The position numbers and the translations under genes were made by a program. The notes beneath the pieces were generated by a model. It worked only from the letters and a program-made list of their open reading frames with translations, did no database searches and had not been told where the DNA came from. Positions 37,268 to 52,637 of a DNA stretch of 64,000 nucleotides are shown piece after piece. Position 1 is the first letter of the stretch; every line of letters starts with the position of its first letter. The DNA is from Bacteroidia bacterium (GTDB taxonomy: Bacteria; Bacteroidota; Bacteroidia; CAIKAF01), in the NCBI GenBank assembly GCA_030427255.1, contig JAUHWY010000007.1, positions 62,001 through 126,000 on the forward strand. The letters are read 5' to 3'.

Positions 37268-39667
37268 ATGAATCTGACCAAAGGATTTGTATTTCTCCTA
37301 TGCTATGTGGCGCTGGCCAACCTTTTTTCTCCCCTGAAAGCCCAAAACTTTTTAGAAGTAGAAGGCCGTGTTGAAGCCGAAGATGGCCCTATTGAATTGT
37401 TCATCTCCATAGGTGAGGAAGGAAAGCGTAAAAAAGGCATTAAACTTAAGCCTGACGGCACTTTCCTTATTGAGCTAGATCTCAGCCAATCCTTTGAATT
37501 CTACATTACCGCAGAAGGTTACAAACCTCAATTGGTTAAAATCAATACCACCGTAAGCGATGAGGCGATTGAAGCCGGCCTTATGCCTTTATACCTTGAT
37601 TTTTACCTGTTTAAACTTCCCGAAGAAGTAAAAGAAGAGGAAGAACTGGTAGACGAACTCCCCATTGAAACCACCATTGCCTTTAATAACCAAGACTTTA
37701 CCTTTAATTTCGATAACCCCATGATGGCCACAATGGAGGGACAAAAAAATATGGCCCAACAAATCAAAGACTCCCTAATAACCCAAGTAGAGAAAAAAGA
37801 CTCCCTGGCGCAAGCCGATTCCTTGGCACAAATACAAAGACAACAGTTTATTCAAGATTCCATAGCTCAAGCTAGAGCTCGACAACTTTTCATCGAAGAT
37901 TCCATAGCACAAGCCAAAGAAAGGGAACGTTTTATTCGCGACTCCACTGCTCAAGCCAAAGAAAGACAAGCTTTTATTGCCGATTCTACTGCAAAAGCCT
38001 TAGAACGCCAAAAGGAAATTCAAGATTCTTTAGCTTTTGCCCAGCGAAAACAGCTTATGCAAGACTCTCTGGCTCAAGTGCAAAGGCAGCAGTTTATAGC
38101 TGACTCTATCGCCCAAGTCGAACGACAGCAATTTGTTGCAGACTCTTTGGCGAAGGTGCAACGAAAACAGTTTGTAGCAGATTCTATAGCACAAGCCGAA
38201 CGACAGCAATTTATTGCTGACTCTACCGCACAAGCCGAACGACAACAATTTATCGCAGACTCTACCGCGCAAGCCGAACGGAACCAATTCATCGCCGATT
38301 CCATTGCCCAAGCCGAACGCCAAGCGTTTATAGCCGACTCTACCGCCAAAGCCGAACAGGCAAAAGCCGAAGCAGAGGCTCAAGCAAAGGCCGAAGCAGA
38401 GGCCAGACAACAGTTCATCGCTGATTCTATAGCTCAGGCCGAACGCCAAGCATTTATCGCCGATTCTACCGCCAAAGCCGAACAAGCAAAAGCCGAAGCA
38501 GAGGCTCAAGCAAAGGCCGAAGCGGAAGCCAGACAACAGTTCATAGCCGATTCCATTGCTCAGGCCGAACGCCAAGCATTTATTGCCGACTCTACCGCCA
38601 AAGCCGAACAAGCAAAAGCCGAGGCCGAAGCTCAAGCCAAAGCCGAAGCGGAAGCCAGACAACAGTTCATCGCCGATTCCATTGCTCAGGCCGAACGCCA
38701 AGTATTTATTGCCGACTCTACCGCCAAAGCCGAACAAGCAAAAGCCGAGGCCGAAGCACAAGCCAAGGCCGAAGCGGAAGCCAGACAACAGTTCATAGCC
38801 GATTCTATAGCCCAGGCCGAACGTAAAGCATTTATTGCCGACTCTACCGCCAAAGCCGAACAAGCAAAAGCCGAGGCCGAAGCTCAAGCCAAGGCCGAAG
38901 CGGAAGCCAGACAACAGTTCATGGCCGATTCTATAGCCCAGGCCGAACGCCAAGCATTTATCGCCGACTCTACCGCCAAAGCCGAACAAGCAAAAGCAGA
39001 AGCAGAGGCTCAAGCCAAGGCCGAAGCAGAGGCCAGGCAACAATTCATTGCCGATTCTATCGCCCAAGCAAAACGACAAGCCTTTATTGCCGATTCAACA
39101 GCAAAGGTGGAGGCGCGCAAACAATTCATTGCCGATTCCATAGCTTTGGAAAAACGCAAAGCCTTTATTGCCGATTCCACGGCCAAAGCTGAGCAAGCCA
39201 AGGCCGAGGCAGAAGCAGCAGCCAAAGAGAAAGCCCGCCAACAGTTTATTGCCGATTCCACGGCCAAAGCCAAAGACCGATTGGCATTTATTGCCGACTC
39301 TACCGCCAAAGCAAAGGCCCGTTGGGAGTTTATTCAAGACTCTACCGCCAAGGCAAAAGAATGGGCACGCATTCAGGACAGCACCGCAAAAGCCGAAGCC
39401 CTTTGGAGGCAGCAGCAAGAGCTGCGCGAAATGCGCCGAAACAACAACATCCGTATTTTTGAAACCGAAGAAGAACGGAACCGGGTGGTGGCCGCCAGCG
39501 AAAGAGGGGCAATTTTGAGCAAAACTTACGTAACCCTCAAAAAATACGATGTAGTTGAACTCGAAAGCTCCGATGCTTATGGCTTCATAAACTTTGGAGA
39601 TGGCGAAGGCAATATTGAGGTGAATAAAGAAGAATTCTTCCGGTTTAAGCGCATATTTAATAAGTAA
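37268..39667 (+). CDS. secreted repeat protein with FIADS-type coiled-coil repeats
   Basis: 799 aa. A signal peptide (ending PLKAQ) is followed by a beta-sandwich-like N-terminal domain (about 28-120), then more than 500 residues of charged repeats. The smallest unit is 13 residues around AERQQFIADSTAQ. From about 38313 six copies of a 42-residue unit (126 bp) with an added AEQAKAEAEAQAKAEAEA arm lie in tandem, differing by few residues. A compact C-terminal domain (GAILSKTYVTLKKYDVVEL...RIFNK) closes the protein. I do not recognise the family. It is probably a long helical rod in the periplasm or on the outer membrane. Confidence 0.8.
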   Translation: MNLTKGFVFLLCYVALANLFSPLKAQNFLEVEGRVEAEDGPIELFISIGEEGKRKKGIKLKPDGTFLIELDLSQSFEFYITAEGYKPQLVKINTTVSDEAIEAGLMPLYLDFYLFKLPEEVKEEEELVDELPIETTIAFNNQDFTFNFDNPMMATMEGQKNMAQQIKDSLITQVEKKDSLAQADSLAQIQRQQFIQDSIAQARARQLFIEDSIAQAKERERFIRDSTAQAKERQAFIADSTAKALERQKEIQDSLAFAQRKQLMQDSLAQVQRQQFIADSIAQVERQQFVADSLAKVQRKQFVADSIAQAERQQFIADSTAQAERQQFIADSTAQAERNQFIADSIAQAERQAFIADSTAKAEQAKAEAEAQAKAEAEARQQFIADSIAQAERQAFIADSTAKAEQAKAEAEAQAKAEAEARQQFIADSIAQAERQAFIADSTAKAEQAKAEAEAQAKAEAEARQQFIADSIAQAERQVFIADSTAKAEQAKAEAEAQAKAEAEARQQFIADSIAQAERKAFIADSTAKAEQAKAEAEAQAKAEAEARQQFMADSIAQAERQAFIADSTAKAEQAKAEAEAQAKAEAEARQQFIADSIAQAKRQAFIADSTAKVEARKQFIADSIALEKRKAFIADSTAKAEQAKAEAEAAAKEKARQQFIADSTAKAKDRLAFIADSTAKAKARWEFIQDSTAKAKEWARIQDSTAKAEALWRQQQELREMRRNNNIRIFETEEERNRVVAASERGAILSKTYVTLKKYDVVELESSDAYGFINFGDGEGNIEVNKEEFFRFKRIFNK
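38313..39068 (+). repeat. tandem 126-bp coding repeats (six copies)
   Basis: Six in-frame units of 126 bp inside the repeat protein, each coding a 42-residue helix-forming block. The copies are nearly identical at both DNA and protein level, so recombination or slippage should change copy number without losing the frame. Boundaries are approximate. Confidence 0.8.
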
Positions 39668-50300: not shown

Positions 50301-50396
50301 GTGCGTAATAAAGCGGCTGTAGGCATTTTCCAGCCGACAGCTTCTATTCTATGCCCAATGAAGCAGCTGGGAATTGCCCTACATGTAAATCATTTA

Positions 50397-50576
50397 GAGA
50401 GGGTAGGCAGCCCGTCTTTACCTCATCATTGAGAGACGGGAGGCATCCCGTCTTTACTTCATCATGGAGAGACGGGAGGCATCCCGTCTTTACTTCATCA
50501 TTGAGAGACGGAAGATATCCCGTCTTTACCTCATCATGGAGAGACGGGAGGCATCCCGTCTTTACTTCATCATTCA
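50397..50576 (+). repeat. array of 36-bp hairpin repeats, locus 1
   Basis: Four full units of 36 bp (50431-50466, 50467-50502, 50503-50538, 50539-50574), preceded by a degenerate unit from about 50397. Each has the stem GACGGGAGGCATCCCGTC followed by TTTACTTCATCAT. The units abut without spacers. An ATTCATC heptamer run starts the tail, within which the neighbouring minus-strand gene ends. Confidence 0.9.
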
Positions 50577-52079
50577 TCATTCATCCCTCACCATCAACTT
50601 CCCGCTTTCCTTGCCGCTTTGCCAAAAATACAAGCCCGAAGGCCAGTCCATGGGTACTTCAAAGCCCGATTTCAATGCCTCAGGAGCTATACCTAAAAGC
50701 AAACGCCCGTCCATGGAATAAATCTTTAGTGGAGATTCTATTGACCTATGGTACAGAACACCTCCAGGGCTTACGGGATTCGGATACAAAGGACCGGAAG
50801 GGAGTTTCTCCTCCTCCAATCCTGCCGGAGACCATTTAAACCGCAATACCGGAGGTACGTCCTCGCCCATGTACTGCAAAAATGTGCCTCCCACATACAC
50901 CATGCCGTCGGGACCTTTCACAATGCTATTTACTGCGGATAGAGAGGATTCCCATACGCCATTATGCCAATGCCTAGAGCTATCTATTCCCGGTTCCGGA
51001 AAATACTCCGGCAGCAAAAAGCCGTTGGAATCTACCGCCACTAAATCCCCTCTTAGGCTGTTCTGAAAACTGTCAATTGCGCCCCCTACTAAAAACAAAT
51101 TAGGCTGGATGCGCTCAATAACTGAAACGGAATTTAAGCCCAAAATCCCCGGTGTTTTCACCCGCACATTATTGAAATTGTTGAAGCTGGAATCCAAGCT
51201 GCCGTCCGGCAGAAGGCGGAACATCCCATACACAATGCTATCGCCCATCAATTGCAGAAAGCCACTTACCCAAAGCCGCCCTCTTTCATCTAAGTACTCG
51301 GGTTTAACCCGTATGATAGAATCGGAGAAAATGGAACGAAAGCTGGTATCCAGGCTCCCATCGGAGCGGCGAAGTCGTGCAATCCCCGCTTGAGGTCTGC
51401 CTTGAACGTAGGTAAATTGCCCGCCAATATAAATCATAGAATCGGCGGATAAATGATAATTAGGGTATTTACCGATGGGCACTACAAAGCTGCTGTCCCA
51501 GGTGGCGTCCGGATAAAGACGGGTATAATGGAAATTCGGCAATACCACCGAGCCGGCAGCATTGCAGTTGAAAGTCCCAATGTAAATCATGGAATCGGCA
51601 GGGTCTACAAAGGCTCTAGGCATACCACAAGCAAATTGACTGTGCAGGTGATTCTTCCATACGGTGTCCAATTGCCCCTCAGAGTCCAAACGAAAAAAAC
51701 CAAAACCAGAGGAAAAGATAAAACCACCGGAGGAACCATATATCCTTCTGTTTACTCCTCCCCCCCCCCCTGAATTCAATTTAAAATCCGGATTCCAATT
51801 CCCCTCCATATCAAACAGCATCCATGAGCTAGAGCCCATATAGGCGCTACCCGATCCAAAGGTTACGTATTGCTGCCCAATACCTCCCACCAGCATCATT
51901 TGATTGCCCCAAGGAAAACTGATTTGGGCAATCCTAGAAATACTATCATAAGTGTCGTTCAACTCCCAAGCCAAGTGCGTCATAAAGCCCTCGTCTCGAA
52001 AAAAGGTTTGAGCATGACCGGAGGAATAAAAAAGGCCAAAAGAAATCGTATAAGCAGTAAGCCTTTTAAGTAGAAGCAT
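50577..52079 (-). CDS. T9SS-exported protein with delta-60-type repeats
   Basis: 500 aa from the ATG at 52079 (signal peptide MLLLKRLTAYTISFGLFYSSGHAQ). The body has repeats such as GSLDTSFRS / GSLDSSFNN with MIYIGGQFTYVQG, the delta-60 propeller-like repeat family, and the C-terminus is a type A T9SS domain (YPNPVSPGGVLY...DGRLL). The coding strand has 11 consecutive G at codons about 104-107. The stop codon and last residues lie in the tail of the downstream repeat array. It is probably a surface or secreted protein whose expression may be phase-variable. Confidence 0.82.
   Translation of the reverse strand: MLLLKRLTAYTISFGLFYSSGHAQTFFRDEGFMTHLAWELNDTYDSISRIAQISFPWGNQMMLVGGIGQQYVTFGSGSAYMGSSSWMLFDMEGNWNPDFKLNSGGGGGVNRRIYGSSGGFIFSSGFGFFRLDSEGQLDTVWKNHLHSQFACGMPRAFVDPADSMIYIGTFNCNAAGSVVLPNFHYTRLYPDATWDSSFVVPIGKYPNYHLSADSMIYIGGQFTYVQGRPQAGIARLRRSDGSLDTSFRSIFSDSIIRVKPEYLDERGRLWVSGFLQLMGDSIVYGMFRLLPDGSLDSSFNNFNNVRVKTPGILGLNSVSVIERIQPNLFLVGGAIDSFQNSLRGDLVAVDSNGFLLPEYFPEPGIDSSRHWHNGVWESSLSAVNSIVKGPDGMVYVGGTFLQYMGEDVPPVLRFKWSPAGLEEEKLPSGPLYPNPVSPGGVLYHRSIESPLKIYSMDGRLLLGIAPEALKSGFEVPMDWPSGLYFWQSGKESGKLMVRDE
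51760..51770 (-). repeat. G11 homopolymer tract in coding sequence
   Basis: Eleven consecutive C on the plus strand, G on the coding strand, at codons about 104-107 of the T9SS protein. The frame is open in this sequence. A gain or loss of one base would truncate the protein. Confidence 0.9.
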
Positions 52080-52315
52080 GCTAAAACGATGGCTGAGATT
52101 TAATGTCATGCTTAATAGAAAAATAGTTACTCAGCTAAAAAACTGTAAATGCGTCAAATCCATCTCAATTTGGGAAATTTATATCAACAATCAAAATAAT
52201 GGGCTGGTTTTTACTTTAAGGAATAGCAGAAAGAGCCTTTGCTAGAAACCGTATCGCCCTCCCCTTTTGCTGCCTCAGGACCTTGCATGAAAACTTTTGC
52301 ATCATAAAGACCATG
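52080..52315. other. non-coding gap upstream of the T9SS gene
   Basis: No clear gene. It holds the presumed promoter of the minus-strand T9SS gene and an AT-rich stretch at 52110-52200. A short minus-strand frame near 52210-52310 is not recognisable. Confidence 0.4.
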
Positions 52316-52420
52316 CAGAGACGGGAGGCACCCCGTCTTTACCTCATTATGGAGAGACGGGAGATCTCCCGTGTTTACCTCATCATGGAGAGACGGGAGG
52401 CATCCCGTCTTTACTTCACC
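52316..52420 (+). repeat. array of 36-bp hairpin repeats, locus 2
   Basis: Three units with the same 36-bp period (starts 52316, 52352, 52388), in the same orientation as locus 1. The middle unit has a full palindrome ACGGGAGATCTCCCGT, changed on both sides of the stem compared with its neighbours. Confidence 0.88.
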
Positions 52421-52560
52421 ATTCACCATTCACCATTCACCATTCATCATTCACCTTTCACCATTCATCATTCACCATTCATCATTCACCATTCACCATT
52501 CACCATTCATCATTCATCATTCACCATTCACCATTCATCATTCACCATTCACCATTCATC
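52421..52560 (+). repeat. heptamer tandem array (20 x ATTCAYC)
   Basis: Exactly 20 units of 7 bp, ATTCACC or ATTCATC (one TTTCACC). The array ends 77 bp before the aldolase ATG, so it lies close to that gene's promoter. The same heptamer follows repeat locus 1 for only a few units. Confidence 0.92.
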
Positions 52561-52637
52561 ATTCTAGTGGCCTTTTAAAAAAACAAAAACACAGGCCTCA
52601 AAAAATACGTAACTTCACGGCCTCAAAAAATGAGGAC

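Follow-up and report, generated by a model that had tools for sequence, protein, structure and literature searches.

A candidate slipped-strand G11 switch in a multi-copy, mosaic family of T9SS-exported propeller genes

In Neisseria, the opa surface-protein genes are scattered copies, each with a frame-shifting repeat near its 5′ end and few of them in frame (PMC3745409, PMC13183285), and in gonococci their variable blocks are reshuffled by recombination and gene conversion (PMC13183285). In Campylobacter, the length of G/C homopolymers within coding sequences sets the reading frame (PMC8355987, PMC6321876). For Bacteroides, a 2025 review describes, where it names the genus, phase variation of surface products by site-specific inversion, involving invertible promoters and SusC/D (PMC11868660). 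Here, we analyse a G11 tract within a 64-kb window (the whole stretch of DNA under study) and find that it is probably a contingency site of the slipped-strand kind, belonging to a multi-copy, recombining, phase-variable family of T9SS-exported propeller proteins. In the Bacteroidota, DNA inversion accounts for most of what is known of phase variation, and in the open-access literature that we searched we met no case of a T9SS cargo or surface protein varied by a homopolymer.

The family resembles Neisseria opa in combining multi-copy surface proteins, a frame-shifting 5′ repeat and block shuffling, a likeness drawn from assembled genomes and not from observed switching. Opa proteins are outer-membrane barrels whose genes carry a pentamer repeat in the part encoding the signal peptide, whereas here the repeat is a mononucleotide run at codon 114, the product is an exported propeller from a T9SS bacterium, and there is no homology. 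By this comparison the family would work like Neisseria opa, and it is not a member. With the poly-G contingency genes of Campylobacter it shares a coding G/C homopolymer; those genes, however, are many per genome and have measured rates, whereas this genome has three G11 tracts. The Bacteroides inversion systems belong to the same phylum and also vary surface products, but act by inversion and not by tract length.

The gene and the elements within it are as follows.
50577–52109, minus strand: type I family gene encoding 510 amino acids, with a signal peptide, a DUF5122/delta-60 beta-propeller and a T9SS type A C-terminal signal
50589–50789, minus strand: T9SS type A sorting domain (residues 441–507), absent from OFF products
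51760–51770, minus strand: G11 tract, codons 114–117, ON at G8, G11 and G14 only by frame arithmetic
51743–51771, minus strand: frame-change zone of 29 bases, flanked by the conserved anchors AATTC and TATATGG

The first-pass annotation had reported eleven G in a row within this coding sequence, and the run lies exactly where it was placed, reading CCCCCCCCCCC on the plus strand at 51760–51770. It encodes Gly 114–117 of the 510-residue protein; the position of about codon 104 given previously applies to an in-frame ATG ten codons after the first, from which the tract starts at codon 114. The frame of the window copy is open at G11, which agrees with the ON state assigned to it. Across computed lengths of 7–15 G, the gene is open at 8, 11 and 14 only, and all remaining lengths stop translation at 117–119 or 142–144 residues, which bears out the claim that any one-base change closes the frame. 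The tract is thus long, lies in a reading frame and comes early enough for slippage to abolish function. In the predicted model, which is beta-rich and propeller-like with Foldseek matches but of moderate confidence (pLDDT 61), it falls in a poorly ordered, low-confidence loop (residues 113–127) between predicted strands.

The assignment of the product to surface proteins also holds, with one borderline element. DUF5122 (PF17164) matches in three stretches at 59.7 bits (cut-off 27), which places the protein among delta-60/DUF5122 propellers, although the delta-60 model (TIGR02608) scores below its own cut-off; the full-length Por_Secre_tail match falls just short (22.9 bits, cut-off 23). The genome encodes a T9SS (SprA, 2334 bits) and 85 type A tails over the cut-off, and the protein, with its signal peptide and borderline C-terminal domain, fits type A cargo of that system. 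A Pfam search of the protein returned DUF5122 and a weak Reg_prop match alone, with no homology to an Opa-type outer-membrane barrel.

No other C/G run within the window exceeds 8 bases, and its dinucleotides predict 0.06 C runs of 11 or longer. Because 7-G matches are fewer than in shuffled DNA (7 observed versus a mean of 16.5), G runs seem mostly avoided in the window, and the G11 stands out. Genome-wide, pattern searches of the 3.2-Mb assembly found 11 tracts of at least 9, three of them of length 11; GGNGGNGGNGG was found 857 times, three all-G. Two of the three G11 tracts occupy a homologous glycine site, in the type I copy of the window (contig C17) and in a type II copy on contig C6, two paralogues of only about 30% identity; an intergenic G11 lies on contig C5. 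The type II branch is 30–37% identical to type I and has the four glycines at the same place; the C6 copy spells them as G11, whereas its other members use mixed codons.

This conservation raises the possibility of a codon accident, in which a conserved loop of four to five glycines happens to be spelt GGG and mutates slightly faster without being a selected switch. The four glycines are invariant across the aligned copies, several of which use mixed codons, and tracts of G9–G10 also occur in the same genus in what we take, from reading the translations, to be gyrA, murB and an arginase-like gene, as well as in many intergenic places. Under the window's codon usage, however, G11 has a probability of 0.7% for five glycines and 0.4% for four, yet it is present in three copies across the two branches, and three of the four copies in a sister genome (below) break at the tract site. 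We therefore consider such an accident rather unlikely.

Tracts of at least 9 were seen in every genome of the bacterial family, in ordinary genes as well, and the tract alone is therefore weak evidence; the credibility of the window tract comes from its gene family. Across the genus, most tracts lie between genes or within ordinary ones, and we therefore rejected the idea that a tract marks surface genes in general. Individual cases include a G9 in the gyrA-like gene of a same-genus genome (G005; L120, 2042–2050), adjoining codons for SRGGVGSRG, and intergenic C9–C10 runs (L027, 5509–5518; L028, 2117–2125) in a repeated terminator-like element (CCCCGATATACCTGAAAAAGGTATATGG). Separately, the window's own genome (G000) has an in-frame G10 in a 958-codon propeller-type (Reg_prop-like) sensor gene (L029, 4790–4799; G000:C53:181789–181798), a candidate switch with a response-regulator gene directly after it.

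What the earlier annotation overlooked is the multi-copy, mosaic, repeat-bounded family around the tract. A protein search located a second type I copy in the window's genome (contig C29), 88% identical and ON, whose run is interrupted (GGGGGTGGGGGG). The sister genome, the same-genus MAG Flavobacteriales M30B58 (G006), has four type I copies that are 88–91% identical to the window's and lie in two tandem pairs, A–B and C–D. Protein matches split at residues 117–119 in three of these four. Copy A, with G11, is ON. In B (G6) and C (G8) the frame is broken, and the lengths that would keep it open are 5 or 8 for B and 7 or 10 for C. D has G5 and loses its frame 6 nt beyond the run by a one-base insertion, so that it would be closed at every tract length. 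Measured from anchor to anchor, the interval falls short of the ON length by 5 bases in B, 8 in C and 2 in D. The two assemblies are draft MAGs, and a 100-N gap with duplicated flanks lies next to D. In-frame and out-of-frame alleles are thus seen among paralogues of two species, not at one locus in one species. Beyond these two genomes, searches of the order's 14 other genomes (E 1e-12) and of viral contigs gave no further relatives, and the GTDB contigs gave a single distant relative besides M30B58.

The three breaks cluster within about 25 of 1,530 bases, and B–D have no further frame break. Programmed frameshifting was put aside: the three breaks do share one class, yet chance alone would produce this about one time in four. 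Among 39 syntenic orthologues in G006 (window genes with counterparts in the fetched syntenic part; 15,983 codons), none is broken. Downstream of the break, dN/dS is 0.13–0.20 among the G006 copies and 0.11–0.21 over all pairs, OFF–OFF pairs included, compared with 0.07 for the 39 core genes. These codons look to be under purifying selection. Low dN/dS is no proof of present function, because the copies diverged before the breaks and the signal mostly accumulated by then; it shows instead that the frame breaks are recent or reversible.

The first-pass suggestion of phase variation therefore stands in part: slippage as a switch has good indirect support, sister copies being broken at the same site against a clean background, but similar tracts occur in relatives' housekeeping genes. 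It also counts against a switch that the run is largely eroded in B and D and that the other ON copy in the window's genome has an interrupted one. This erosion, with the D insertion outside the run, would fit one-way pseudogene decay of an accessory family in which the tract is simply the weakest point. Breaks off the tract are present too, in the type II copy on C14 and in the large T9SS gene that precedes copy A, so some decay is under way in G006. Set against a general decay of the family are the tight clustering of the breaks, the lack of other premature stops and the low dN/dS, and we judge it unlikely. The large T9SS gene itself (L054, 2–4439) loses its frame at a T5 run and seems to have another indel shortly beyond it.

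The copies are also mosaic. Identities along the gene jump between about 60% and 97%: over a few hundred bases the window copy matches C29 and C at 97–100%, after which it matches A at 92–98% and its identity to C29 drops to 61%. Local site incompatibility lies below that of all 1,000 permutations. Chimeric joins of similar copies during assembly could produce both mosaics and frame breaks; exact stretches as long as about 330 bases are common to G006 copies, D sits at the N gap, and contigs of the window's genome end inside the family. Contigs C29 and C21, however, overlap by exactly 127 bases, which points to an apparent assembler word of that length. The longest stretch shared by C17 and C29 is 116, so these two should not be confused in assembly, although an additional, unassembled copy is conceivable. 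With no break in the 39 control genes of G006 either, an artefact of assembly or sequencing is extremely improbable.

Strong mosaicism is equally what one would expect if the broken copies were silent cassettes that feed one expressed copy by gene conversion, the break keeping them silent. The pairing of an ON copy with a broken one (A–B) and the conserved codons of the broken copies would suit such an arrangement. Unlike promoterless donors, though, the broken copies retain their start, signal peptide and full 5′ part, and the window's genome carries two ON copies, each at its own locus, which makes silent donors very unlikely. Blocks shared across species have a dS of 0.16–0.24, against a core median of 0.42 (range 0.16–0.95), suggestive of recent cross-species transfer of blocks but not decisive.

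The gene is bordered by repeats.
50389–50574, plus strand: 36-bp palindromic repeat array of 5.2 units, the downstream border of the gene
52312–52422, plus strand: 36-bp palindromic repeat array of 3.1 units, the upstream border
52415–52564, plus strand: heptamer array (TTCACCA)21, upstream of the gene
50430–52534, no strand: segment absent from the syntenic place in G006, which has about one 36-bp unit there

At this place in G006, the neighbours, which we take from their translations by eye to be a BamA-like gene and a class I fructose-bisphosphate aldolase gene, are adjacent, with a single 36-bp unit between them. The repeats also follow C29/C21, A–B and C–D, where their orientation with respect to the gene is the same; they were looked for near the type II copies and are absent there. 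Because the repeat core has at least 142 matches in the window's genome, the association with the gene is suggestive, not exclusive. We infer that the gene was inserted by crossover between repeats, with loss in G006 equally possible. The wider element, a palindromic minisatellite of 36/43 bp with the core GACGGGAGGCATCCCGTC, is dispersed, is common to both genomes and often lies at contig ends. Elsewhere in the window, a 126-bp coding tandem repeat (38062–39093, 6.4 units) lies in the open reading frame 37268–39664.

For the preferred reading, a phase-variable contingency site, we propose the following mechanism. Replication slippage at the G11 would shift the frame, with G8, G11 or G14 giving the full-length protein and other lengths a stub of 117–144 residues that has neither propeller nor T9SS signal and so would be expected to stay off the surface. 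Copies in one genome would switch independently, yielding a population of cells that display different members, and variable blocks would be traded between copies by gene conversion; slippage switching would act on a short time scale and reshuffling on a longer one, in the manner described for gonococcal opa genes (PMC13183285). The flanking 36-bp repeats may allow entire gene segments to relocate. We infer that the frame breaks arise by slippage and reverse in living cells, with the repeats as crossover points. A full three-layer system of T9SS surface variation, in which tract switching and block exchange are joined by transport of copies via the 36-bp palindromic repeat, perhaps between species, is a tentative possibility that we hold to be doubtful. 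Selection might come, at a guess, from phage, grazers, competitors or a host. If the proposal is true, this is an Opa-like family in an uncultured flavobacterium, and such surface variation would be no speciality of animal pathogens.
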